Positions 47,123-64,000 of a stretch of 64,000 nucleotides of DNA are shown piece after piece (within the stretch, counting starts at the first letter, position 1; the number at the start of each line of letters is the position of its first letter). A model generated the notes under the pieces. It was not told the DNA's origin, made no database searches, and saw only the letters and a list, made by a program, of their open reading frames with translations. Source of the stretch: Pseudoscleropodium purum (lineage: Eukaryota > Streptophyta > Bryopsida > Hypnales > Brachytheciaceae); the NCBI GenBank assembly GCA_963969395.1, contig OZ017798.1:7060173-7124172 (forward strand), in the 5' to 3' direction. The position numbers and the translations under genes are program-made.

Positions 47123-50030
47123 TCAAATGCACACATCTTCATCTACTAGTGCTTCATCACAGTTGCAGTTATCATCATCTTCTTCATCTTCACTTCTAGA
47201 ACCTTCTTCATTGTCAACACCATGTAATGAGAGATGCCCCTCGATCTCTGAATTCTCATTTTGAAGCTCTATAACGACTCTTTCTCTTTTATGATTAGTA
47301 TTCACTATCTTCTTATGCCATTTTGCTGCAGGATCTTATGCATTTGAATTTATAGTCAGGCCCTTTTGATCTCTACAAACAACAAATGCTGGTGTCGTCA
47401 ATGTGGGCTCTGGAGTAAATATTTCTAGAAATGGTTCTACCATGATGCCAACGCGTGGTGTTCCAATTCTATGGGGTGGAGGTTTAGGAGCCTTAGATGA
47501 TGATGCTTCGAGAGTGTTCTTTCCTCCACGAGTACTACGATGTACTAATTTATATTTATCCATGGTGATTGTGCGAGGAGCTTGAGGGGGTCTACCACCC
47601 CAAACAATATTAGAAACATTTGCATTGGAACTTGAGCATTCCCCACTGAGCCTAATCCTTCTTCTACATGTTTGGAGGTAGGATTTGAAGTTCTTGTAGT
47701 AGAAGGCAATGTAGAATGTTGCCCTAGTGAACTTCATCCACGACCAATGGTAGACAACCTCATCTGTACAGTAGCATTTGCACTAATTTGCGAAGGACAT
47801 GGAATGTCATCCTCTTCCACATGTACATGTGAAAGGTCAAAAAGCATTGCATAATCAACGTCCATTTCATTTATTGGAAGTGGGCAAGCCATAGGTGTCT
47901 TTCCAATGTCTCTACCATTGTGACCTATTGGAAATTTGTTGCCACTAGCTTGGCCACGCACATGTCCCTTGCTACCACTACCATCATGGCTTGACAACCC
48001 ACTATTCAAAGTTGTACGATTTATGACGTTCTTTCTATTTCCATCATTGTAGTCATCTTTGTTTCTAGCATTGGTTTTTGAAAACACATGATGAGTGTTG
48101 TTGTCCTCATTGGGGGGAGGATCATCATTGCTACAATCTCCTGTAGTATCTTCATTGTTCTCCAAAGGCAAGGGCATACGTTTGTCAACCGCAAGACCTT
48201 CATTCGGAAGGGGAGGAGGTGAGGAGTTGCAACGAGTGTTTGAACCTGAAGGTCCCAAATCATAAAGAGCAATATCATCATTTTCATCTAGGCCTTCCCC
48301 ATAGTAGTTTCTTGCTTCCTCAAAGTGATCAGTACCTTCTGCCCACAAATTCATATGTGTCCAAGCCATAGAAGGTGCCCAATTTGCTTCGATGTCATCA
48401 TCTTCTACATCATGTGCTTACATTATATTAAAGGTGCAATCCGGTTCTTCCACCAGGATAGGGCCAAGAGCATTTGGATCAGAATCCTTTGACTGAGTGT
48501 TATCATCATACCAACAAGCCGAATCGGCCCCTAGTTTTTCATAAAGCATATGATTGTTGGTATAGATGTATACCAAAGATTCTACCTTTTCGGGCGCAAG
48601 GTGGTTCTTGCTCCTATTGTGAATATACAAATACATTCTCTAGTTCTATTCACAAGATGATGCCAAATATGTAAGTGATAGAACACGCACAACAATTTTA
48701 GATAAGGCCTAGTCTCTAATCTTGTGCCACCATTGGTGGGGTTGCAATTTGCCCACATGAATGTTGGGTGATTCTTCAGGGCTATAGGCTCTACAACGCT
48801 CTTTGTATTGCGTTAGTTCTAGCAAGCAATCATCAAAATTCAAACGTACTCACTTCTCTAATGCATGGATAACACGATACAATGCACAGAGTGCAATTCC
48901 GTTTCCTTTCAGATATGGTGTGTTCCTGAGGAATGGATTCAAAAGTGCACCGACATAGTGAAGATCGGTAAACGTCATGTTCCACCTCATATTGAAGGTT
49001 GTCTCCAAAATGTTAGCCACATGATCGGGTAAGGAGAAGAGTGGCTCTCTCAAACCATGCACATATCTATATAAGTTGTGCATTGTGAGCCATGCTTTAC
49101 CCATCACTAGCTTTTTTCCATCAAACATGCACAAGGCCTTCAACACATCTTCCAACATGTACACATAATCCCAACATCGGTGCCGAAAGTTTTCATCTTT
49201 AATGGTGCCCACATTATATACTTCGTTGGTTTTGGCCTTTACACCATATTGCACATCCTGTAAGCCCGCTATAAAATTCTTTACATGAGGACGAGCAATC
49301 ACTTTGACTAGCACTAGTCTCAATTCCAACAATTGCTGTATCATGAGTAATTAAAAGCAAAGTGAGTTTCACATGGTGTTAGGAGCTGCTTGTTGGGACT
49401 GAACTGGCAAAAAGTGGCCATTGTCACATGATGCCTTTTGATGTATCTGCACAACCGATTTGCCTTCTTGATTAAATCTTTGAATAATTTTATTTTAGCC
49501 CAATCCTCCAACAATAGATCTAATGCGTGTACTATGCAGCCTTGCTTGAAGATGTGCGGGTACATTATAGTAATATCGTCTAGTGCTCCAAGCATGTTCA
49601 TCGCATTGTCGGTACAAACTTGGATTACATTTTTTGGTCCCACTTTTTTGATGAATACTTTATTTTGGTCAGCTATGTACATCATGCTTTTCGTCTCACC
49701 AGTCATGTCAATGGATCCGATAAATACATCACTAGTAGGACATGACATCATTATGTTCATGAGAGCACATTGATTAACATCATCCCAACCATCACTGCAT
49801 ATACTCACCCCATAGTTCTTCATTGCAAAATTCATTTTGGCTTTGATCTCATTTTCAATTAGCAATCTCATGGATTCAATCAACTGAGTCTTTAACGCAT
49901 GGTAGGAAGGAGGAGAGTATTCAAAATGTGCCACTAAAGTTGCATGCACTGCCTCAATAAATGCCAAATTTCTAGCCACATTGAACGGCACATTTGCTTT
50001 ATAGAAGTAACTGGCCCACTTCTCATAACG
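47123..50030 (-). pseudogene. Broken hAT-superfamily transposase (DUF659 type)
   Basis: A hAT transposase would cut and paste a DNA transposon in the nucleus. Reading from 50030 downward, the frame opens with WASYFYKANVPFNVARN, typical of DUF659 hAT proteins. It continues with SDGWDD (49.80 kb), VCTDNAMNM (49.61 kb) and CIVHALDLLLEDW (49.53 kb), which hold the catalytic-core Asp residues and the CxxH. At 49341-49344 the frame stops and continues one base over (MIQQLLELRLVLVK). That second frame carries the C-terminal dimerisation region QWWHKIRD...VRVLSLTYLASSCE...IHNRSKNHLAPEKVESLVY, interrupted by stops at 48847-48849, 48709-48711, 48646-48648, 48640-48642 and 48415-48417. A further shift near 47735 leads to a GGRPPQAPRT AT-hook-like tail and an acidic end. 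The N-terminal BED finger is missing. It is almost certainly inactive. Confidence 0.85.
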
Positions 50031-50033
50031 TCA

Positions 50034-50545
50034 TATTCAATAAAATGGGAGGGTAGGGCACTCCCAAAATAAACTTTGGCTAAATAAGTGAATCAAAATG
50101 GGCTCAAATGAAGCTCAATACTCTCATATTTTATTAGTTAATTATCAATTTCCATTAAAATGAGAGTCTTGCAAATAATACATGTCCTTTAATAAATATA
50201 AAATTGTTTCAAATCAAAAACTTCTTTCACAGTAAAACAAAATAAACAAGAAATATAACATGAGATACAAAAGGACGGTATATGTATAATGGTTTCAATT
50301 GCTAATACAATATAAAAACCTGTATTTCTTATAAGAGAACTATAAAATAATGTAATCTTACATACAAAAACTAGCACTTCAACATTTGTAAATATAAACG
50401 TCTACATTTACAAGTATGAAAGAACATAGTATTCTACTTCTCTCACCATCATCTGAAGGCATATTGCTCATTTATTAAAATCAACTAGCATTGTATGAGA
50501 TAGATTTAACAATGCAAGAAAAAACTTATAAAACTACCGTTGCAA
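50034..50545. other. AT-rich gap between the hAT relic and the DUF7869-type gene
   Basis: No coding potential is seen. On the minus strand an AATAAA lies at 50471-50476, about 70 bp past the stop of the upstream gene, placed as expected for a poly(A) signal. Confidence 0.5.
50471..50476 (-). promoter_or_regulatory. Putative poly(A) signal AATAAA
   Basis: The canonical hexamer on the minus strand lies about 70 bp downstream of the TAA stop at 50546-50548. In AT-rich DNA this can arise by chance. Confidence 0.35.
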
Positions 50546-53419
50546 TTAAGACTGAGGAAAACTAGCCAAACTTTGGTTGATGACTTCGATTTGAGCAACA
50601 GGGATCTTGATCATACATTGTCGCGTATCCTTCCTAATCAGAGACTTCCACGCTGTTATAAGAGCGTCCGTGTGTTGCCATAATGGCGGTTCGCTTTCAT
50701 CAATTTTCCAACGCAAACCTCTGTCGCTATCCCATCCAGTGTAGAAGTTTTGAATGCTCTCATCTCTTGAAGTTGGACGGAAATACTGAATTAACACACA
50801 ATTTGTTTTTTCAAGATTGCAATTGGGATTAGACAAAGCCCTTGCAATCCAAATTGGATGACTATCACCATCTGCTGGTCGAACCGCTACGAAGTACCCT
50901 TCAAAGAGATCACGTCCCACCCTAAAAGATGGTTGTGGGCGACCACTCAAAGGCCCGACATATGCTTCATCTTCTCCAAACTCTTCGCGAACTTCACCTT
51001 CTTCATTTAGTTCATCTATTTGAGCTACTCGAATTCGAGTCGTCGGCCAAAAACCATCCTTCAAAAAAGTAAATGCAGGTACTGGATCTTGTAGCGCTAC
51101 CTTCACATCACGCCAGTAGTGTACCACATGTTCATAGCGCCTTCGACATTCACCACTGCTGTCCGCATTGTATAGGTTCTCCCAGTATTTTATAAATCCA
51201 GATATACCTTTCACAATGTCTTCAACGCCTTTCATTGACTTCAATGAAATTGGTAATGGTACACCACGTGGCCACAAACTTTGTCCTTGAGCATCTTCTT
51301 TCCACAACTTAATGCCTCTACCACCCTCCCCTAACCAATCCCCATCAGTGCACAACAACTTGTATTTCATAACAGGACACCCTGTTGAATCTAAATAGAA
51401 CTTTACTTGTTGTGGTCTTGTGTGTCCAACGAGCATGTCAGCACCATCTACAAATGCACCAGCAATGAAATTCTTGAAATCAGGCACCTCTTCTATAAGG
51501 TGAGGAATAGTCGGAGTGGAATCCACATCCATAAATGATTTCATCAACGCTGGCACTGTAGGGAAGTTCTCTTTCTTTAGCTGCATACTCCATCTTCCAA
51601 ATAGTGCATCAATGTCATCGTGCGTATGACCAACAATCATGAAATTCACATATACTTCACGAAAGATCTTGTTTGCAACAAGTAGGGACCAAAAACAAAA
51701 TACATATCTGTTTTTGTTGTCTCCAGTGGCATTATCCATCTGCATAATAAGAATAGGTGGCAATGGTGTCGCCGGAATTGAGGTTGTTGGGACTTCAGGA
51801 AGCGAACCTTTGCAAATCTCACTTCCCTTGAGCACCGCCTTAAACAAATTCGTGGACTTCGAATTCATAAACAACTCTCGAGACGACGCCTTTGGTGGCA
51901 ATTCAAGATCTCGCAACAACTTTGCCACAAAGCCAATTGTATAATTTGAATCATGGGGAAAGAGATCCAATCCATAATGTGCATACCGCACATCACCATG
52001 GCCATGCGCAATCATTCCAGTGACCGATACAGGCAACTTCATCAAGCCATCAGTGTCTTTACTCTTGTGTGAGAAAACCGGACAAGCAGTTTTAGAATGA
52101 TCCATCTTGTCATGCATAATTGTGAGGCACTCGTGCAGAGAAGTTAGCGACCAGAAACGATTAATATAGTACAAGTCCCGGTGAGCACGAGCAGTAGAGA
52201 GGTGATTGTCCAACCTCCGTTGCCACATCAAAGCACTGCTGGAACCAGCAAGAGCACCCTTCCTGAGCTCTTTGTATTTGTCACAAGTAGCACATCGCGC
52301 GAAATTGTCCCCGGGCTTCTTGACTTCATACTCCGGAAACTTTGAAGACCTGATCTTACTTAAATTTGAAGTTGAAATATCCTTCAATCCAAAAGCTGCA
52401 TTAAAATCATTGATTTCTTGCAACTTTCCCTTCCACTGAAAGGTAGAGGGAAGACACATGGAAACAACCTTCTCCCCAGACTTCATAGTTCGAGTACGAT
52501 GTGGCATATAATCGGCTTCTTTCTCAAGGATGCACTTCAATGAAACAGCAGCTTGTTGAGTATGTTTCCTCGGTTTTGACATTCCTGTATTACCATGTTC
52601 CATTGCTTCTCGATGACCTTTCACGTGTGTTTGGTAGCGAAAGAATGTGGATTGTGGAACCCCAGAAATATGCATCCAAGCTCGCATACAGACAGGGACC
52701 TCTTCAACTGTGACCATCCTTTTCCCACGGGAATCGTAATGATATTGTCTGTGGACATCCAGCTTCATGAAGGATCTATGCTTGAATGTAGAATTATAAT
52801 ACATGCGCTCACGGAAAGCCCGAATCTTCTCTCTAGGAAATGGTTGAACACAATTTCGACTACAACAAACTTTGCTAGACACTGCATTGATGGATTGTTC
52901 TGTAAGCAGAGCCTTCGACTTCAGAGAGGTTTCATGAGGCGGGTTTCTTGACGTGCTTGAATACTGTCGTATCGATGTAGAAGAGTTTGAGTTCAAGGCT
53001 TTCGCTTGGAGAGAGTTGTACCTATCTCGGACTTCGTGGTCATGAAAACTTGCTCCTCGATAGTGAACGAGTTTAATAGGCCAAGCTATGAGTGAATAAA
53101 TTTTCTCTCTTGAGATATCGACATCGGAATGTGACTTGGAAATATACACTACTACATGAGTGTCATCAAGGGGACCATCTGCTCCGCTGACAAGGTCTGA
53201 ATTTACATTATGGCAAGTACCTTCACCAACAAGTACTCCGTCTTCATTGAATAGGGTGACACATTTCATGTTCCATAACGAACGCGGAAGCCCTTCGCAG
53301 TCTGGTAAGTGCTCCATCATTTCCTCATGAACATGGAACTCCTCATCTGATTCATCCATCTCCCCGACTGGCATGCCAGTCGAAGATATATCACCAGAGT
53401 AAGACGAAGAACGGAACAA
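50546..53419 (-). CDS. Intact large DUF7869-type, DDE/RNase H-like protein (putative transposase)
   Basis: The frame is uninterrupted for 957 codons. The first codon at 53419 is TTG; the first ATG is codon 16 (53372-53374), so the natural product is probably about 942 aa unless an upstream exon joins. Seen along the protein: an acidic N-terminus (20-40); a Cys cluster (185, 186, 190); an HTH-like stretch around 240-270 (VCMRAWMHISGVPQSTFF); CATC at 376-379; HDKMDHSK at 436-443; MQMDNATGDNK at 559-569; VGHTHDDIDALFGRW at 596-610; and a Tudor/BAH-like segment at about 838-905 (FEGYFVAVRP...PIWIAR...VLIQYFRP). MDN plus GHTHxDID is what I know from DUF7869 proteins, common in transposon-like genes of plants and animals. 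D440, D562 and D601/D604 are candidate metal ligands (inference). Intactness beside a ruined hAT gene suggests recent activity or selection. Seven GC palindromes lie immediately upstream. Confidence 0.8.
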   Translation of the reverse strand: MFRSSSYSGDISSTGMPVGEMDESDEEFHVHEEMMEHLPDCEGLPRSLWNMKCVTLFNEDGVLVGEGTCHNVNSDLVSGADGPLDDTHVVVYISKSHSDVDISREKIYSLIAWPIKLVHYRGASFHDHEVRDRYNSLQAKALNSNSSTSIRQYSSTSRNPPHETSLKSKALLTEQSINAVSSKVCCSRNCVQPFPREKIRAFRERMYYNSTFKHRSFMKLDVHRQYHYDSRGKRMVTVEEVPVCMRAWMHISGVPQSTFFRYQTHVKGHREAMEHGNTGMSKPRKHTQQAAVSLKCILEKEADYMPHRTRTMKSGEKVVSMCLPSTFQWKGKLQEINDFNAAFGLKDISTSNLSKIRSSKFPEYEVKKPGDNFARCATCDKYKELRKGALAGSSSALMWQRRLDNHLSTARAHRDLYYINRFWSLTSLHECLTIMHDKMDHSKTACPVFSHKSKDTDGLMKLPVSVTGMIAHGHGDVRYAHYGLDLFPHDSNYTIGFVAKLLRDLELPPKASSRELFMNSKSTNLFKAVLKGSEICKGSLPEVPTTSIPATPLPPILIMQMDNATGDNKNRYVFCFWSLLVANKIFREVYVNFMIVGHTHDDIDALFGRWSMQLKKENFPTVPALMKSFMDVDSTPTIPHLIEEVPDFKNFIAGAFVDGADMLVGHTRPQQVKFYLDSTGCPVMKYKLLCTDGDWLGEGGRGIKLWKEDAQGQSLWPRGVPLPISLKSMKGVEDIVKGISGFIKYWENLYNADSSGECRRRYEHVVHYWRDVKVALQDPVPAFTFLKDGFWPTTRIRVAQIDELNEEGEVREEFGEDEAYVGPLSGRPQPSFRVGRDLFEGYFVAVRPADGDSHPIWIARALSNPNCNLEKTNCVLIQYFRPTSRDESIQNFYTGWDSDRGLRWKIDESEPPLWQHTDALITAWKSLIRKDTRQCMIKIPVAQIEVINQSLASFPQS

Positions 53420-53486
53420 GGAAAATTGACTTGAAAGAATTTTACAATTTCAGGAGGAGTGCATTCAGTGAAGTAAAGAAATGCAA

Positions 53487-53507
53487 TTCAGCGCGGTTCG
53501 CGCTAAA
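53487..53507. repeat. GC palindrome, copy 1
   Basis: Arms TTCAGCGCG and CGCGCTAAA around loop GTT, with one arm mismatch. It lies about 110 bp upstream of the first ATG of the DUF7869-type frame. Confidence 0.9.
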
Positions 53508-53964
53508 ATACAATTCCACAGAGAACAACACAAATAATACATACACATTCCAATAACATTGATTTTCATATTACTTTTACAGAGTTCGATTAAAAAGTAA
53601 TATCTACTTCCATATACTGGAATTTAGTAGAACACAAACCAAAAAGAAAATCACATAAATTTCTATCGATTTTCATTTTGAATTTGGAAGAAATGAAAAT
53701 CATGTATCTATAAAACATTTGTCCACCACAATTGTAGAGGACAACAGGGAAATAACAATTTCCCGTGTATCATAGTGAACTTAAATTTTGAATGAATTCT
53801 CCAAAATTTTGAATGGATTAATGAACAATCGTATGCATTTAGAGAGAATGCACGGAAGTGGAACAATGACATAGTACTGATTAAGTAAAAACACATGACG
53901 ACTTCACACATCACACCTGCAGGCATCCAGAAATTTAGTATTAAACGAGTATAGTAGAATGCAT

Positions 53965-53985
53965 TTCAGCGCGAGTCGCGCTGAA
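53965..53985. repeat. GC palindrome, copy 2
   Basis: Perfect 9-bp arms TTCAGCGCG/CGCGCTGAA around AGT. Outer flanks TGCAT and GTGCA extend the pairing with a single T/G mismatch (a wobble in RNA). Confidence 0.95.
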
Positions 53986-54180
53986 GTGCAATTCAATGAT
54001 CATTTTCCGACGACAGCGTGCATGAGAATGGAGGCCGTATTATAATACATAATGAAGATCAATAACATCATTTTCGTTGTATTAGCTATTAAGTAACATT
54101 ACTTCCCAAATATGAATCTGAATTCCTAGTCATCTTCGGACACTTCAGAATGCACGTAAATCTAGACATACATAAATGCA

Positions 54181-54203
54181 CATCAGTGCGAGTCGCGCTA
54201 ATG
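54181..54203. repeat. GC palindrome, copy 3
   Basis: Variant arms CATCAGTGCG and CGCGCTAATG around AGT, flanked by AATGCA and TGCATT, which pair with each other. Confidence 0.85.
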
Positions 54204-54293
54204 TGCATTTCATTCCACTACCATAAAATTCAATATCAAGACATATATTGGATTTCCCAAACATGACAACAAAATTGGGACACGATAATGCAT

Positions 54294-54314
54294 TTCAGCG
54301 CGAGTCGCGCTGAA
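54294..54314. repeat. GC palindrome, copy 4
   Basis: Perfect core arms around AGT. The pairing extends to 16-bp arms (AATGCATTTCAGCGCG on the left) with one T/G mismatch. Confidence 0.95.
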
Positions 54315-54402
54315 GTGCATTTCTAGTCCAAATCATGAAATATATTGCGTTTTATCAAGACTGGATTCTTGATCCATTTCAAACAGAATTCGTTGAATAC
54401 AC

Positions 54403-54423
54403 TTCAGCGCGACTCGCGCTAAA
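54403..54423. repeat. GC palindrome, copy 5 (loop in reverse orientation)
   Basis: Arms TTCAGCGCG and CGCGCTAAA with loop ACT, the complement of the usual AGT. This copy is therefore inverted relative to most others. Confidence 0.9.
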
Positions 54424-54507
54424 TTGATATGCTGTTTTCTAAATTAGTGGCGAGACTGACTTCATCTCTAATCTCGATTTTCTTCATTTAAAAATCAGGA
54501 CTTGCAC

Positions 54508-54528
54508 TTCAGCGCGAGTCGCGCTGAA
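54508..54528. repeat. GC palindrome, copy 6 (longest perfect arms)
   Basis: Perfect arms TGCACTTCAGCGCG/CGCGCTGAAGTGCA (14 bp each with the outer flanks) around AGT. The base pair that is T/G in copies 2 and 4 is C/G here. Confidence 0.95.
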
Positions 54529-54613
54529 GTGCATTATGCAATCTAGTTTCATAATGGGAAGACTTATAGGAACGTGTAGAAATGAAATTGAAAAAGACAC
54601 TGCTTGACTGCAT

Positions 54614-54634
54614 TTCAGCGCGGCCCGAGCTAAA
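54614..54634. repeat. GC palindrome, copy 7 (decayed)
   Basis: Arms TTCAGCGCG and CGAGCTAAA around GCC, with two mismatches; flanks GCA and TGC still pair. Confidence 0.8.
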
Positions 54635-54639
54635 CTGCA

Positions 54640-55420
54640 AGTAAGAGAATTACTCATATATCACTTCCGATTTAGCACTTCGACATCGTAAATTTCAAAC
54701 GTGTAAACCTCCTATTTTTAGTAATTCCGAAATTTAAGGAAAATTCCCATCGGACAATAATAGTCTCTGACCATTTGCAATCTCAGATCAAGCTTCGAAA
54801 TTGAAAATTCTTTGCAATGCAATTGACACAACATGGAAAGCGTATATGACAAGTGAAGACATGCGCACTGTAATTGTAGGGAGAGGAGTGACAGATGACA
54901 TAAACCTTGTCTATGCTAAATAAGTTACGAAAACTTCTATATTGACGAAGAAGGTGGAGTGCATTACAGGCGAAGGTGTGCGATGCAGTGCTTCCTCGTT
55001 GAAGGCGGCCGACGAGAACAACGTGATAGTAATACAGAGACAATTCAGAACTTCTCCACTAAACCAAACAACACAAGGGAAAGACGCCCACGAACTATGC
55101 AACGCTCACTGAAGTCCTTTCAGTGGAGGGAAAAGGTAGAAGGAGATGTCTGCAGTTGGGTTAGCGACGTACATTGTACATCCTGGCGGGAACGAAAGGG
55201 CGCCAACCGTATCCAAGATTTTGAACACATTCCTTCTAAATTCAGATGTCCCGAGATTCCTCATGCCTATGACAACTGTACATTGTAAAGCGTCTTCTAA
55301 TTCTAGATTAAACCACAGTCCCCACAATTGGTAGTGGGTGAGCTGCCTTTCCAAGATTCTGATTATTAATGCTCGTTGACTTCCAGCAAGTGATGTGTCT
55401 TTTTGTCATTGGGACATTGT
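54640..55420 (-). promoter_or_regulatory. Likely 5' region of the DUF7869-type gene (inferred)
   Basis: The stretch 54.78-55.40 kb is clearly more GC-rich than the AT-rich DNA beyond it. It lies upstream of the minus-strand gene and is separated from its coding frame by the palindrome cluster. It may hold a promoter and a non-coding or short coding 5' exon, which would put the palindromes inside a leader intron, as proposed for the gene at 60-64 kb. Minus frames here (for example 55106-55354, 82 codons) show no family motif. I could not settle on a donor/acceptor pair. Confidence 0.35.
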
Positions 55421-55424
55421 CCAC

Positions 55425-57140
55425 AACGGAAGGCGCAATTGCAATGCATACAGTGCGTTTTTTTATTTTCGTTTTTTAGCACTCTGACTAAAATGACTAA
55501 AGGGTGTTATTAGCAAGATAACTGTCAATTTGATTCTCCAAGTACGATGCCCTTACCGTATTTTGTCTTACATGGACTACTTAAAAAACACATACTAAAA
55601 ACTTTTCATTATTTATAGAGGAATGGAACTTTGTTGCAAAGATTTTGGAGTTCTTTTCGAAGTCGGAATTACTGTTTTTTTCTTATATTGAGTACGACTG
55701 CAGAGATGCCTTCTCCAGGTCTTCTGGTTTCATTTCTCCTGAAATGCAGAAGTCACGATATTAGTTTGTAGTACTAGAGCTTTTAAATTCGAAATTTTCT
55801 GACGATTTCATCCAAAATCTTACTAATTGTTTTTAATAGGCTTGGTGTAGAGAAAATAATTTTGGTGCAATTTCGCTCCAAATCGCCAGAAAAAAGAACC
55901 GTGCCCATTTAGCCTATAGTAAATTCGTACTTTGTGGTAAGGAATATGACTTCGAATTTTTTTCAAAATAGATCGATTTTAAGGTTATGTTTTCTTGAAG
56001 ATCATATTTTGCATTACAATTTAGGGTTTCATAGATCTTAGTAATAATATCTATAACAATGTTGAATGAGGTCAATTTCAAATGGTACCAAAAAATAGGG
56101 AGTAATTGTTTCATATACTTGAAATGTTCACATATCAAAAAAAAAGATACTGCATGCACCACCACATTGCATCAAGTTCTACATTTCTGTATTAAGTGAG
56201 TACAATTCTTGAATTCCTCATTCTATTTTTGTGGAAGGTTGAAAATGAATTGGTGTAATAGAATAGGAGAACACTGATTCGTTGCACTTTAGATGTTTGC
56301 GTGCCCCCACAAAATAAAATTCACTACCACATGCAAGAGACAATTCTTTCATCAAGTTCTACATTCATTTTCTGTTGCAATCTATGAGATTTTCATTTCA
56401 ATCTTTCAAAAGGTCAACATTATATGGGTGCCAAAAAAATTGGAGAGTTCTTGTTTGTTCTACTTTAGACGTTCATTTGTTTCAGAATATTGAAATGCAC
56501 TGCCACATGCAGGAAAAGAGGAAATTTGTACATACTGTTGATCCGTACAATTTTCTGTTTAGGATGATGTAAATGAAATTGAAATTGAAGACATGAAAAA
56601 TTTGTATGATTTACCTTCCCTTTTTATTAGGGTAGTTTTATTCATGAAATTTTATATTTTCACATTCTTATTTTCTCAAATGTAGTTGGTGCTAGGTTTG
56701 CTACACAATATGTATATTACTTTCATCAATTTTGCATGTAACAGAATGTAGATGAAAAATGTATGTCTAATTCTTATATGAAAAGATTGACATCCTCATA
56801 TATTACATTTGCAATTGCAATATACATAGACATTGCACTTGAAAGCAATTAAAGAAAACCAATTAAGAAGACATGTCAAGTGGCTTCTCTCCATATCTAC
56901 CAATAGAATAATCCAATGTTTTAAGCATTCAGTATATGAATGTATTTACCTTGATATGAAGTCAACTAAGATCCAACTTTTCCGTGAAGTACTTTCATTG
57001 TTTAAGATTGTTACCGTTTTGAACCTTTACTTGATATTTGAGATTCAAATTAGTAAAATGATGTAGTAATTTAAAGAAATGAAATTAATCATAATCCTAT
57101 AGTGCTATGCAAGATGGATTGTAGATATAGGTTTAGACAT
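55425..57140. other. AT-rich stretch, no gene recognised
   Basis: Phrases such as CATCAAGTTCTACAT (56172 and 56350) and CCACATGCA (56329 and 56507) are duplicated, suggesting an old duplication between about 56.04-56.20 kb and 56.30-56.52 kb. No palindromes of the GC family occur here. Confidence 0.4.
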
Positions 57141-57149
57141 TTTTTTGTT

Positions 57150-57520
57150 TAATCAAGACAACTTTTATTTCAACAACCCATATGCTGTAATTTATAAAGG
57201 TGAAAGCCCAAAAGACATGACAAAAACTAAAAAGAAGAGGTAAAAAAAAATAAAGAAGACTTAGCAAATAAAGTAAACCTTGGGAATTCATGACAAAACT
57301 AAATTTTTGCTAGTTGTAGGCCTTTTCCTACGCAAGAAAATTTGTATTTCAATAATCCATGTACTGAAGTTTAAAAATGGGAAAGCCAAAAACACTTCAT
57401 ATGATTAAATAAATAACTAGAAAAAATATATGTAGAAGTTGCAAATGAGGTAAACCTTGGAAATTCATCACAAAACGAAATTTTTGCTAGTTGTAGACCT
57501 TTTTCTATGCATGAAGAAGC
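57150..57520 (+). repeat. Two diverged tandem units of ~177 bp
   Basis: Both units contain TTTCAAYAAYCCATRTRCTG, AAAGCC, GTAAACCTTGG and AATTTTTGCTAGTTGTAG in the same order. The TAAACCTTGG anchors lie at 57274 and 57451. No coding meaning is seen. Confidence 0.75.
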
Positions 57521-57529
57521 ATATAAGTA

Positions 57530-60005
57530 CCATCAACTTTGTAGAGCTTTCTTGTTTTTGATAATTTAGATTGTTGTTGTGACACACCCTAGAACATGCA
57601 AGTATTTTTATGGGGCCTATGTAGAATTTATTGTAGATAAAAAAGATTTTTTAGAACTTTTCAATGATTAATCGGGACATGTTTGAGTTGAAATTGCATG
57701 ACTTTGGTGCGTTTTGTCTTGTAAAGTATAGTGAATTTGGAAAATTAATCATGTGGAATATTAATAATCAGAAATAGTAGACATGGCTTTTCAAAATAAT
57801 TTTTAGGCACTCTGAGTTTTTAATTTAAGAAACAACCATGCTTGATATTTTGGAATTCTTGACAACATCAAGCATATAATAAATGAATTGTCGTTATGAT
57901 TGAAATGAGCATTTTTATTATATTTTTGGTCTAAAATGGTGGATAAGGAAGTTAAAAAAAAAATTTCACGTAGAATTGATTTATGGATTCTAAACTTGGA
58001 AGTTTATGATGTTTAAAGAACTCATCATATTCAAAATTATGAAATTAGAGACTAAACTTAGTTTATGATTGTCATGACATGTAATGAACACCTTCTAGAT
58101 TTTTATTGATGATGAAAAGGAGACATGCAAGTTCAAAATAATATTTTAGCATTCATTTCATTTCTGGAATGACCACTAAGGAGTGGATGTAATTAAAAAA
58201 AATCATGAAGGTTGTATGAATAGAATGATTATACCTATTATTTAATGAATTTCATGAAATAGAATCATTATTAGTACTTTATAGATGTCATGGTGTGGAG
58301 TCATGATTACTTTCTAGTTTCTACAAAGTGAAGCCTTCAAATTTTATTGTATTTTAGTTTATTATTCTAAGTGACCTACAATGTTATAGAATTTGTATGT
58401 AAAAGGTCTTATAATTATAATTGAAAATATTTAAATATTTAGGGAGTTGGCATGCAGGAAAGAAACAAAATAATACTATGTCTTCTTAAATTTTACATAC
58501 ATGGAATTCTTGTTTTTTCACTTTGTTGTACTTTTTTTTTTAAACCACAATGTCTTAGAAATTCAATGTAAAGCCATTTAAAAACTAACCATACATCTTT
58601 GAAATAATTACTCAAAATTGAATGATTTTATAGCAACTTCATTCATATTTCTTTCATTCACTTGTAATTAGATAATGAAGTCAAATGATTCATAATCAAA
58701 ATATTTTTTTCTTAAACTTGATTTTGTATTGTCCTACAATGCTATGGAAGATGCAAAAAAAAACCTGCAAAAAAGTTGTGATATTTTTAGGAATTGGCAT
58801 CCTACAAAATAATGAATAAATTTTATTTTTTTATCCACATTGAAATATTCACTTTGATTTGGTTGTAATTATTCACTCTAAAACCACAATGAACATACAA
58901 TTTATAACCAAATGGATTCTAAATAATTAGAATTGTTACAATTTATGGAAATTGTATTCATATCGTTCTTCACTCTAAACTTGTTATTTGAGATTCAAAT
59001 TAAAAAAGATCTTAGGAATTTAAAAGAATGAAATGAATAAAATTATCAAACAATGCCATGCAAAATAGATGGAAACCCCCCCAATGAAGTTGTATGAAAT
59101 AGCAAAGAGTTTAGATTAAAAACAATTTTTAAAAATTGAAATTTGTCATTGAATTGATTTACACAAGTATTTAAATCAATTGAATGAATATTGAAGTAAC
59201 CATTGAATGATTGTTGCATTTAATGGTGCCTACTTATTTAAATGTTGATACTTTTTACAAAAATAATTAAAGTAAGTCAATCTTTTCTATGAAAATAATT
59301 TAATTAAAAAGTTCTTTTTTCAATGGGATAGTGTTTGCAAAGGATAAGAACACTCCAAATTCATAAAAAATAATTCTTAAAATGACTTGTGATTAAAATA
59401 ATAAATTCTTCTATCTTTTGTGTTACTTTCAAGCATGCATTCCATTCAAAAAGTAGTTAAGCTCTTTCTAAACAATTGCACAATAAGACCCCTCAACCAA
59501 ATGCAATTGTTATTTGTGGACTATGAATTTTATATTAAAAGAATACTAATATTGATTGTATATCCCTAACACATAAATATACTTTCTAATTTTGAAAGCA
59601 AAATTTTTTGGCTAGAACAATTAAAAAATTAAACAAATTCCTCCATATTGTAATCTAAAGCACTAATTTAGTGTCAAACATCGACAAAATTAAAAATGTG
59701 GGCCAACAAAGTTCTCTATATTCGGTGTAAACATTATACTACAATTTGTGTATGAAGAATAATAATGATACGCACTTGAAAGAGTTGTGTGAACCTCAAC
59801 ATGTTATTAAGGATACATAACAAAACCTATTAAGAAGTTATATATGAAACCTAAATGGTAGAATTACTATATGAGATCCTAAACTACAATAAGGGGTTAC
59901 AATATGAATCCAAAGATTTGAAGTATTTTTGGGTGAAAACAATAATTAAAAATTGTTATGGCATAGTTATTAATATCTTTGTAGTAAGAATAATTATTAT
60001 TCAAT
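57530..60005. other. AT-rich stretch, no gene recognised
   Basis: This is a long AT-rich segment with short motif-free frames, separating the two gene regions of the right part of the window. Confidence 0.45.
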
Positions 60006-60010
60006 GTTAT

Positions 60011-60187
60011 GGGAAGGCGGGTATGGGAAGTTAGGATCAGGCGGGTATGGGAAGGCGGGTATGGGAAGTTAGGATCAGGCGGGTATGGGAAGGCGGGTAT
60101 GGGAAGTTAGGATCAGGCGGGTATGAGAAAGGCGGGTACGGGAGGGTCTGGGAAGGCGGGTACGGGAGGGAAGGCGGGTACGGGATT
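60011..60187 (+). repeat. G-rich minisatellite, 38-bp unit, about three full copies plus scrambled end
   Basis: The unit is two copies of GGCGGGTATGGGAA followed by GTTAGGATCA. The GGATCA anchors at 60034, 60072 and 60110 are exactly 38 bp apart. The right end decays into GGCGGGTACGGGAGG variants. Many GGG runs on the plus strand could form G-quadruplexes. It lies directly before the putative 5' region of the ParB-like gene. Confidence 0.9.
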
Positions 60188-60189
60188 AG

Positions 60190-61127
60190 GTGAGTGGCCG
60201 CTAGGGTTTGCATTCCGCTGTGCCGCTTTTTTTTTTGTCTCGCTCCTCGTCTCGCTCCTCTGTGCCGCTCCTCTGTGCCGCTCCTCTGTGCTGCTCTTCT
60301 GTGCCGGTCCTTGTCGCCACTCCAATTGGCATTCAGTTAGGGTTTTGCTCCGGAAGCAACGAGTCTGTTTGTGCGTGATCAGTCTCCTGTAGTCTTCAGT
60401 GTAGATTGCATTGGCATTCGGTGACGGATTTTTCGGTTCGAGAGCGGTACGAGGCTTTGATATTCCGTGTATAGTGAGGATTTCGTGGAGCACGCTCGAA
60501 AACTGCGTGCAGGGACGGAGCATTGCCTTGGATTGGTGGTGGTTTAGTTCTCAGGTACTTCGGTTTTGCTTCGACTTTGAGTATTGGTTGTGGTCGTGCT
60601 GGTCCTCCTTGTGCTTGTTTTTTTACTTTGTTTTGCTCTGTATTTTTTCTTTCATTTTCATCCTTGCTTCTCACTTCATAAGCAATCACTTTATTGTTTG
60701 TGTTCAGTTGTTTTCATTGTTTTCATGCTTCTTGTTTCGATCCGACGTCTGCATGTAATTTACTGATTACGAGACTTTGGAATTTTCAGAATAAATTGCT
60801 GGATTGCGTGCAGCGAGTTACGATTGGCACTTCGGTAAGTTTGCTGAGGTTTTGCTTTCATTCCTCTTTGTTTATTGTATGTTGTTTCTGTTTTCTTGTT
60901 TATTGTATGTTGTTTATTGTATCTTGTTTATTGTATGTTGTTTCTGTTTTCAGAGTTTCTTGATCAAGTCAGCAGCGCTTGATCAACAGTAGTTCATAAT
61001 TCAGGGTTTAGGGTTTAAGGGTTTAGGGTTTAGGGTTTAGGGTTCCTGGCTCTTAGTGCTCGTTCGTGTGTGACCTGTGCAGTTCTGTAGAGCAAATCTC
61101 CAGTGCAAATCCGAACTTCCATTCCAG
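60190..61127 (+). promoter_or_regulatory. Putative promoter and spliced 5' exons of the ParB-like gene
   Basis: The block starts with a GC-rich, pyrimidine-rich leader with CTCTGTGCCGCTC repeats and telo-box-like AGGGTTT motifs (60201 and 60340), as in plant housekeeping promoters. Splice signals are good: CTCAG/GTACTT (donor at 60555), TTTTCAG (acceptor ending 60789), CTTCG/GTAAGT (donor at 60835), CTGTTTTCAG (acceptor ending 60953) and TTCCAG/GTACTT (donor at 61128). These give candidate exons ending at 60554, 60790-60834 and 60954-61127. They contain no long common frame, so they may be untranslated. The next acceptor could be TTCAAG (ending 62095) or CTGCAG (ending 62104), which would place five palindromes in one intron. 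This is a prediction from signals only. Confidence 0.5.
61004..61044 (+). repeat. Interstitial plant telomere repeat, ~6 units of GGGTTTA
   Basis: Six consecutive GGGTTTA units with one extra A after the second and a CC ending lie within the candidate exon 60954-61127. Short arrays of this kind are common near plant gene starts as telo-box motifs. Nothing suggests a chromosome end. Confidence 0.9.
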
Positions 61128-61353
61128 GTACTTGCCGTCATCCCTTTTTTTCCCCCTTCTGCAATATGATCTGCAATGCTTCTCTGTAGTTACAGTGTTG
61201 GTGTTGACTTTTTAGATAGAGAAGTAAGCATTCTGATAGAAGTAGTAACCCTAGCCCTAAACCTTCAGATGAATATGGGCAAACCCTGAAATGAAAGCAA
61301 TGAAAGAGGAATTTACCAAACTAGAATCCATTCTGAATCCTAGCATTTGTCAT

Positions 61354-61374
61354 TTCAGCGCGGCTCGCGCTGAA
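61354..61374. repeat. GC palindrome, copy 8
   Basis: Perfect arms TTCAGCGCG/CGCGCTGAA around GCT; it lies in the putative leader intron. Confidence 0.95.
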
Positions 61375-61488
61375 ACGACACATGCTCCACTATTAACTAA
61401 CGTCGCAGACGTTAGTTCATAAACTTAACTAGAACTCACGAACAACGGTTGCACAGGTATGACATGCTGTATATAAGATGCACGACAG

Positions 61489-61509
61489 TTCAGCGCGAGT
61501 CGCGCTAAA
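61489..61509. repeat. GC palindrome, copy 9 (outer arms replaced in concert)
   Basis: Core arms TTCAGCGCG/CGCGCTAAA around AGT. The outer flanks are GACAG on the left and CTGTC on the right, which differ from other copies but still pair with each other. Confidence 0.95.
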
Positions 61510-61715
61510 CTGTCAATCATCACCATTCCTACGACATAATATATTCATAAAACTCATTCCATTTCCTATCCAATTCTCTAGAAATAGAATATGACGAATT
61601 ATTAATTGTGCACTAAACGCTTTACATTACCAATTCATTTCTCAGGTAGAAGAACAGAAATGATTCCAAAAAATACATTACTTTAGAAGTCCATCCGCAT
61701 ACAAATAGGATACAA

Positions 61716-61736
61716 TTCAGAGCGAGCCGCTCTGAA
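61716..61736. repeat. GC palindrome, copy 10 (compensatory core change)
   Basis: Arms TTCAGAGCG and CGCTCTGAA around AGC. The C to A change in the left arm is matched by G to T in the right arm, leaving the 9-bp arms perfect. Confidence 0.95.
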
Positions 61737-61818
61737 ACGACATTCTATGATCTTAAAAGCAAAGCAAAGCAAGTTTCACAAACCAAATAATAAACAGCGA
61801 TAACGACGAATAAAGCAG

Positions 61819-61839
61819 TTCAGCGCGAGTCGCGCTAGT
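61819..61839. repeat. GC palindrome, copy 11
   Basis: Left arm TTCAGCGCG, loop AGT, right arm CGCGCTAGT. The inner six pairs are intact and the outer end has decayed. Confidence 0.85.
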
Positions 61840-62035
61840 ATGCAATTGGAGAAAATGATGAAAAGTTATTCTACCGGATGAAATTACTCTCAGTGTCACC
61901 AAAAACAAATATGAATCTGACAGTCGCCGCCACAGAAAACAGTGGTTGAATGAGAGACTCAAAAATATGTACGTAAATTCATCCACTATAAAGTTTCTGT
62001 AATATTTACAGAAAGATTGTAACAGTAAGACCATA

Positions 62036-64000
62036 ATGGAACACTATAAATGTCATTTCAGCGCGAGTCGTGCTGAAATGCATCATTATTTTCAAGAACT
62101 GCAGTGCTTCCTACAACTCTCTTTCCACGAGAAGATCAAAGACATCGAGGCTGACGCCCACCCAATGATCAAAATCAAGTGTATGACAACGATACCCGGC
62201 GAGTCAAGAAGGGACCAATACCACTTTGCTATCTGCCTCGACTCGGTGTTAATTCCCTTTAACTTAAGTCCATTCCTAAGCAGCCTCGAGCCAACTCCAT
62301 ACCGAGACGAAGTGAAAGAGCTAGAGAAGAAATTGGACAATAACGAGTGGAAGAACGCGAACGGAACTCCGTTGTCCTGGAAAAAGTTGTGTAGCAAAAT
62401 CCGGCTCCTATTCAACGACTTCTACATGCTGAAGGGGAAGATGGAAAAGCAGAATGAAATGAACCAACCACGCACTATATCAAGGGAGATAATGAACCAA
62501 GGCGTAAGTCAAGGTTCAAAACTGAACGTGGGTCAACAGTCAGGTACCAGTCGGGGGCAGAGGAAAAGTGTACAGAAAACTCCACAAAAGAAAGGCAAGA
62601 AGGATGCTCCATCTTCATCAGAACGGAAACCGGTCACTCGAGACTCTGAAGTGTCCGAGGTCGCTAAAGGGAGCTATGCGGACGAGATGTCCAATGTTCC
62701 TCATTCATGGGCAACAGAGAAGAAACCTAACTACGAGCAAGTGAGCCAGGTCTATAAGAAATTTTGGACGACCTGCGAGGACGCATACATCTTCAAGGTT
62801 GGGGAGAAGAAAGTGATTGACGTCTCACAATTGGTAGATCCACCGGCAACTTTCAATATACGCTCCAAGCAGGACAACATTGTCGAAGATATGGTCAATT
62901 ATCTGCTCAATATCCCCGACAAAAGCACGAAGCAGACACTTTGCGTTATGCCTGTTGGGCACGACACAATGCCCAAGAATTGGGAGGATATTGAGAATGG
63001 CCAATTCTATATTATAAACGGACAGCACAGTCTTGCAGCTAGCAAATTTATGCTAGACGAGAGGAACAAGGTGAACGCGGAAGAAAGAGAGCACTTCCGT
63101 AGGTGGAACTGCTTCGTTGTTTGGTCGAAGGATGCGGAGACGCTGAGATGTATCTCTGCCTACTACAATCGAACCAATCACTTTGTGGCAGTGCAGCCGT
63201 CGTGGGCGACTAATATTTTAGGAGCTCGATCGGTATGGGAGGCAATGGGAAGACCGAAGAATCCCACTCCAGCAAAATCTGTGGGAGCTGTTACCATCAG
63301 TCGGCGGACTGTTGAGAACAAGAAGAACCGCGAAATTTTCCAGGTATGCAGTTTAGCGCGAGTCGCGCTGAAGTGTTCCTCCTTGAGTTGATTATGGTAT
63401 ATTGCAATCTCTCAATATGTGGATTGAGTGCATAATATAATTGATTTTCATGATATTTTGTAGGCGTTTGAGAAGGCTATGTACGTAAGATTTTCACTGA
63501 TCGAGGTTGTGAAGAGCCTGAAAATTTCCAAGACTAAGGGGAGGGAGGAGAAGCTGAAGCTGACGAACGAGTTGCGGCTGATTACTGCACCTGATGACGT
63601 CTATAAATTGTGGAGTGAAGTAATCTCTGCAGCTGCGCATGGGGAACTAATTAACCCCGACACGGACAAGATGTTTAACGCACGGGCGGGCTGGAGCCCC
63701 GAGAATTGTTTGCTGAATCGGGAGTTCTTCAAGCACTTGGGCAATCTCAGCTATGAGGAACTATCCAAGCTTGCGAAACACCTTCTAAATCAAATGGGTG
63801 GAAAGCACAGGCATTCATATCCTAAGGTGACAGTGAAGGCAATCTCTACAATGCAAGATGATTGTTACAGCACCAAGGAGTGGGTAGAGCGCCGTAAGCG
63901 AAAGAATCTCGTCATCAAGGAGCTCCACGCGATTGATCCCAGCCTTGGCCTTCTCAACTCAGGGACCAAGGTGATCAGCGAGAATTGGAAGGCGTTTAAG
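62036..64000 (+). CDS. ParB/DGQHR-like protein, two exons, incomplete at window end
   Basis: Exon 1 (62036-63343, 436 codons from the first ATG) and exon 2 (63464-64000, 179 codons, open to the edge) join in phase 0 across a 120-bp GT-AG intron. The true start is uncertain: a splice acceptor at 62095 or 62104 could replace the first 20-23 codons, which contain a palindrome copy. Residues 140-230 are a basic, low-complexity linker (QKTPQKKGKK). Residues 255-385 show a ParB/sulfiredoxin-like pattern: KVIDVSQLVDPP, IVEDMVNYLLNIP, LCVMPVG, then FYIINGQHSLAAS (324-336) and YYNRTNHF. NGQHS resembles the DGQHR/ParB nucleotide-binding motif with the Arg replaced by Ser. Exon 2 (AFEKAMYVRFSLIEVVK...) is helical and basic with no domain I know. 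Family members bind or hydrolyse nucleotides or nick DNA; the role here is unknown. Confidence 0.7.
62057..62077. repeat. GC palindrome, copy 12
   Basis: Arms TTCAGCGCG and CGTGCTGAA around AGT, with outer CAT/ATG pairing. It overlaps the first codons of the open frame starting at 62036, where it would encode HFSASRAEM, so it bears on where translation truly starts. Confidence 0.9.
63344..63463 (+). other. Intron of the ParB-like gene containing palindrome copy 13
   Basis: The donor CCAG/GTATGC and acceptor TTTTGTAG/GCG flank a 120-bp AT-rich interval. Reading through would add 15 codons and stop, while splicing keeps 179 further codons open, which strongly supports the intron. Confidence 0.85.
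63352..63372. repeat. GC palindrome, copy 13 (in intron, next to the 5' splice site)
   Basis: Left arm TTTAGCGCG, loop AGT, right arm CGCGCTGAA, with one mismatch. It begins 8 nt after the first base of the intron. Confidence 0.95.

Follow-up and report, generated by a model that had tools for sequence, protein, structure and literature searches.

Lineage-varying palindromes of a giant Sola-1-like transposon in a moss as candidate recognition sites

Why does a short GC-rich palindrome recur thirteen times beside two genes in a moss genome? The question is raised by a 64-kb stretch of Pseudoscleropodium purum DNA (the window; contig OZ017798.1, C42:7060173-7124172), in which the palindromes cluster next to a DUF7869 gene and a gene for a ParB-like protein. 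Both genes and all thirteen palindromes are parts of one giant DNA transposon. The palindromes are probably multi-copy dyad recognition sites of this Sola-1-like element, read by a dimeric protein whose gene most likely lies in the element, with sites and reader co-evolving. The element type, a ParB-like accessory gene, and motif-based self-recognition are already known, the last in another kind of element. What is new is that palindromic cores vary between lineages within a conserved frame. The portions of the literature covered by the search held no description of such lineage-coded palindromes, and no match for DUF7869 or for the palindrome written with one of its cores.

A scan of the window with TTCAGCGCGNNNCGCGCTGAA at up to three mismatches found 12 sites: four exact, five with one mismatch, two with two, and one with three. 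The thirteenth palindrome has four mismatches. The core AGCGCGNNNCGCGCT at up to two mismatches gave exactly 13 matches in the 64 kb, and this core-level scan found no further palindromes in the rest of the window. A chance origin is excluded, as 100 shuffles of the window gave no match to TTCAGCGCGNNNCGCGCTGAA at up to three mismatches and core matches averaged 0.05 per shuffle. An earlier note on this DNA had counted thirteen palindromes with none elsewhere in the window and had judged them hard to explain by chance; both statements stand. Seven sites lie upstream of the DUF7869 open reading frame, at 53487..53507, 53965..53985 (exact), 54182..54202 (the site with four mismatches, also found by the core scan), 54294..54314 (exact), 54403..54423, 54508..54528 (exact), and 54614..54634. 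Five precede what survives of the ParB-like first exon, at 61354..61374 (exact), 61489..61509, 61716..61736 (with a core change on both arms, GAGCG/CGCTC), 61819..61839, and 62057..62077. The last, at 63352..63372, lies in the first ParB-like intron with its centre 18 nucleotides after the first intron base. Start-to-start distances are 105-478 bp on the DUF7869 side and 103-1295 bp on the ParB-like side. All 13 sites fall outside the inferred exons, in keeping with the claim that they are non-coding or intronic. The symmetry of the arms often exceeds 9 bp and reaches 13-15 bp from the centre, and the sites share little outside ~31 bp. A tandem array of ~108 bp was considered and rejected because the spacers seemed unrelated by eye. 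A known RNA was rejected, since the window holds no tRNA and no Rfam family at gathering score. A viral origin was also rejected: the exact palindrome matched one IMG/VR contig at a single site, which is the chance expectation, and scans with both protein alignments gave no confirmed relatives among 6 and 69 pattern matches.

What joins the two clusters? The earlier note had treated them as two gene neighbourhoods. Comparison of six copies places them in a single transposon that is 17,573-19,299 bp long in the five copies with two fetched ends (the sixth, copy E, has no left end in the fetched DNA). The element starts with AAC and finishes with GTT, and its termini form an imperfect 25-bp inverted repeat in which 18 of 25 positions match by hand count. 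The five complete-ended copies all display 4-bp target duplications (TCAT, AACT, ATAA, TAAG, and TCTT). The window copy is 18,622 bp long, starts at 50,027, and ends 4,648 bases beyond the window (window-equivalent 68,648); its in-window part is 50027..64000. The left terminal repeat occupies 50027..50051 on the plus strand, and the left copy of TCAT, which occurs on both sides of the element, occupies 50023..50026. The DUF7869 gene (957 amino acids) lies on the minus strand at 50546..53419. On the plus strand, the ParB-like gene consists of the surviving part of its first exon (62090..63343, by homologue comparison), an inferred GT..AG intron 1 (63344..63463), and a second exon that continues beyond the window (63464..64000). 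The intron was placed from the sequence, and protein P0128 of Physcomitrium patens continues across that position. The 5' part of the first exon is absent from the window copy: residues 1-63 of homologue P0108 have no match there and are matched in copies B, D, and E. A DUF659 hAT-like gene (window 47336-50026 plus the right flank, L008 from position 822) was considered as a component of the element and rejected. It is the interrupted insertion target, because joining the flanks without the element and one TCAT restores a 275-amino-acid open DUF659 frame across the empty site.

Sola transposons have 4-bp duplications and a DDD transposase, sometimes exceed 15 kb, and occur in Physcomitrella, according to the available parts of two accounts (PMC10741241; PMC9033089). 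Sola1-1_Ec32 of Ectocarpus, a giant 21.5-kb Sola-1 transposon, carries a ParB-like gene on the strand opposite its transposase, and the same account proposes that such accessory proteins of giant algal transposons bind the element that carries them (PMC12477816, in the sections available). The moss element is similar in exceeding 15 kb, in carrying its predicted transposase gene and its ParB-like gene on opposite strands, and in its 4-bp duplications. It differs in that the Pfam matches of its scanned frames include no methyltransferase family; a NIF/FCP1-like phosphatase gene of the HAD type is present instead (L007:8800-9627, beyond the window end). Furthermore, the available sections describe no palindromic sites for the Ectocarpus element (PMC12477816). 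The Pfam scan of the element's frames found no transposon family besides the DUF7869 gene. The superfamily name Sola is provisional.

The palindrome follows the element through the genome. A genome-wide scan, made with the CG core only, found 122 exact occurrences in 313 Mb and none of a reversed control. Fifty of the 122 places were examined (28 in six multi-site regions, 6 in six single-site regions, and 16 in further stretches), and every one of the 50 belongs to a copy of the element, with aligned pieces 92-99% identical. At least 47 DUF7869 places in the genome are at least 92% identical to that of the window, and a ParB-like place adjoins 47 of the 48 that were scored. The proposed tie between palindromes and the two gene types holds elsewhere in the genome. 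A match to a known repeat, which the earlier note had named as a refuting outcome, was borne out by half: the sites do lie in a transposon, but each is a component inside it and not the mobile unit.

The palindromes occupy homologous places across copies. At up to five mismatches there are 18 sites in each of copies B, C, D, and F and 17 in the window copy, where the site following the one at 61489..61509 is absent. In copy B, whose exons and introns were inferred from frames and sequence, seven sites lie upstream of the DUF7869 gene, six upstream of the ParB-like gene, one in ParB-like intron 1, and four further right, including two in intron 2; none of the 18 lies in an inferred exon. A comparison of window 53421-54786 with its copies showed CpG and CHG variation several-fold above that of other positions, as in methylated decaying repeats. 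When the upstream region was compared in ten copies, these positions varied the most, as expected if the copies are methylated and decaying.

Do relatives of the element carry such sites? In five divergent families of the same genome, a general frame, TTYAGnnCG-NNN-CGn'n'CTRAA, is kept upstream and in introns. At up to three mismatches, 25 sites fit it in 9.4 kb from these families versus 1 in a 46-kb window control. Each family displays one prevailing symmetric core. The C44 family (56% ParB identity) has six CT sites, one of them tied, in upstream, intron 1, and intron 2 stretches; the C41:14049419 family (64%) has six that are CG or tied with CG; the C48 family (46%) has five that are GG or tied; the C41:14173526 family (43%) has six that are GG or tied; and the C49:10900226 family (46%) has two GT sites. 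On the same scale, the 18 sites of copy B comprise 14 CG, three tied with CG, and one AG. The two core bases have changed on both arms at nearly all sites of a lineage together, which suggests that sites and a reader protein co-evolve. A stretch guessed to hold the transposase end of the C44 copy contained neither gene nor sites. Before a divergent DUF7869 gene, stretch L054 (C49:2776600-2778100) holds three TG-like palindromes spaced exactly 58 bases apart, at positions 467, 525, and 583. The 12.7-Mb contig C49 holds most ParB-like matches below 70% identity and may be a sex chromosome or repeat-rich.

Further evidence comes from predicted ParB-like homologues, which often extend from exon into intron and so carry a translated intron tail. 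Tails were taken from the 47 listed among 92 aligned proteins, and P0128 and P0140 were dropped because they read into the next exon. When the centre was fixed exactly 18 nucleotides into intron 1, as in the window, 15 of 40 tails could encode a palindrome of at least eight pairs, against 0.87 for shuffled peptides (40 of 43 typed tails; those under 10 residues were excluded). The frame YAGnnCG-NNN-CGn'n'CTR, picked after such tails had been seen, fits 27 of 51 intron-1 tails (0.55 for shuffles; P0128 and P0140 dropped) and 15 of 77 intron-2 tails (0.72; P0297 and P0327 dropped). Related proteins are non-independent, so these counts are not probabilities. The core deduced for the clade to which the window belongs is CG; other clades have AT, GT, GG, or CT. 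A tree was built from 26 rows, the window and 25 of the 27 proteins that fit the frame (P0142 and P0148, with odd cores, were excluded). On it the cores require 7 changes versus 15.2 when shuffled; CG forms one clade at 100/99, GT needs two changes, and CT four.

Several results weigh against recognition by an element-encoded reader. Palindromes are just moderately less variable than their flanks among copies (CpG 0.102 versus 0.124, CHG 0.073 versus 0.151, other positions 0.013 versus 0.027), and over all sites their diversity is not lower (0.041 versus 0.037) because the palindromes are CpG-rich. In copy B, covariation between the arms over its 18 sites falls short of significance (p 0.16). 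The tail test is weaker without a fixed frame or centre (mean 8.45 pairs versus 6.66 shuffled; 44 of 45 tails scored), with nine of 44 tails at five or fewer of 100 shuffles. The AT label is unclustered on the tree (a value as low came up in 134 of 500 shuffles), and P0181 implies two cores within one intron. Two of the five families have GG in common and another has CG as the window does, which means that no core need be confined to a single family. In another divergent family, at C49:2773811 (71% identity in DUF7869), the gene for DUF7869 is preceded by three TG-like sites, but none occurs in 1.45 kb before or 0.37 kb after the ParB-like match. Finally, the ParB-like protein has no sequence match in Pfam, NCBIfam, or PDB (a PDB profile search gave 0), and its model, inspected for a helix-turn-helix (HTH), is of low confidence in the C-terminal part.

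Which protein would read the palindromes? Because the examined sites are confined to the element, the reader would be the element's own protein. A single prevailing symmetric core per family, kept upstream and in introns and altered on both arms from family to family, is the trace expected of co-evolution with a dimeric protein that reads sequence. The ParB-like protein, predicted to adopt a ParB/Srx fold (alignment of the window with 40 of 102 relatives), is the first candidate and the simplest guess. It would bind in the non-coding parts of the element, namely upstream of the transposase gene, upstream of its own gene, and in introns. The core of each family would serve as an address code, and binding would mark, activate, or protect the reader's own lineage. 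Such a mode would resemble the anti-silencing system of VANC and VANDAL in Arabidopsis. VANDALs are Mutator-like elements that encode VANC proteins, and the anti-silencing entails demethylation in trans. Known VANC targets are short motifs that lie within the introns of two genes, VANC21 and VANB21, and ahead of a third, VANA21, and VANC6 has other motifs, according to the available sections of PMC5735166 and PMC10398659. In both cases family-specific motifs lie in non-coding parts of an element, though some moss families share cores. However, VANC motifs are short and often tandem in these sections, whereas the moss sites are dispersed ~31-bp dyads, their element is of a different kind, and the candidate reader is a ParB-fold protein. 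Nor is the moss element of Mutator type, having 4-bp duplications and a DUF7869 gene. The palindromes offer concrete candidate sites for the self-binding proposed for ParB-like transposon proteins, and since their mirror-image cores differ between lineages, that idea becomes testable. If true, self-addressing of the kind that VANC performs in Arabidopsis would gain a second and independent example.

It is possible, though doubtful, that the resemblance goes further and that an element-encoded protein with a ParB fold is loaded onto the palindromic code of its lineage, spreads across its own element, and shields it from silencing, as a eukaryotic ParB-parS-like self-recognition on a transposon. 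Bacterial ParB-parS is a segregation system in which ParB binds palindromic parS through an HTH and acts as a CTP-dependent clamp. The likeness rests on the predicted fold and on palindromic sites clustered near the gene; the moss case is a transposon and not a segregation locus, and its core varies between lineages.

Could the palindromes act instead as RNA hairpins in element transcripts, in splicing, export, or as small-RNA decoys, with selection on folding and not on DNA sequence? This appears unlikely. Several sites fold to hairpins of 14-16 bp (to -25.9 kcal/mol), but others fold weakly (to -6.1). One site lies 18 nucleotides into intron 1, in homologues too. The core changes between lineages hit both arms, yet a single prevailing core per family is not required by structure alone. 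The eighth pair is biased: of the 13 window sites, 12 have C in the left arm and 6 have A in the right arm, and the strand is the same for both clusters even though the genes are divergent. Purely structural selection was rejected on the covariation result from copy B; over the 13 window sites the observed score was reached by 13 of 500 shuffles. As the arms of a single element show no significant covariation, its sites resemble repeated copies of one dyad sequence.

Dispersed internal binding sites of the DUF7869 transposase, for transposition or autoregulation, are quite improbable. The model for such sites is the subterminal repeats of En/Spm. An autonomous element needs its transposase, the DUF7869 protein has a predicted DDE/integrase-like transposase fold (window with 43 of 107 relatives), and seven sites lie just upstream of its gene; however, no site comes closer than 3.4 kb to the left end or 1.1 kb to the right one, and introns of the other genes hold several. 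A functionless ordinary repeat spread inside the element by hairpin mini-insertions or template-switch correction is very unlikely, for although the sites are alike in ~31 bp and little beyond and the copies decay at CpG and CHG positions, the nucleotide-exact position after a splice site and the family-wide cores of divergent relatives argue against it.

Among named relatives, the best matches to the DUF7869 protein come from two mosses, Physcomitrium patens and Ceratodon purpureus. Inside the element, a GC-rich minisatellite of GGCGGGTATGGGAA units occupies window 60008-60190, and alignments between copies break nearby. A run of plant telomere-type TTTAGGG repeats lies at window 61000-61050, before the cluster upstream of the ParB-like gene.

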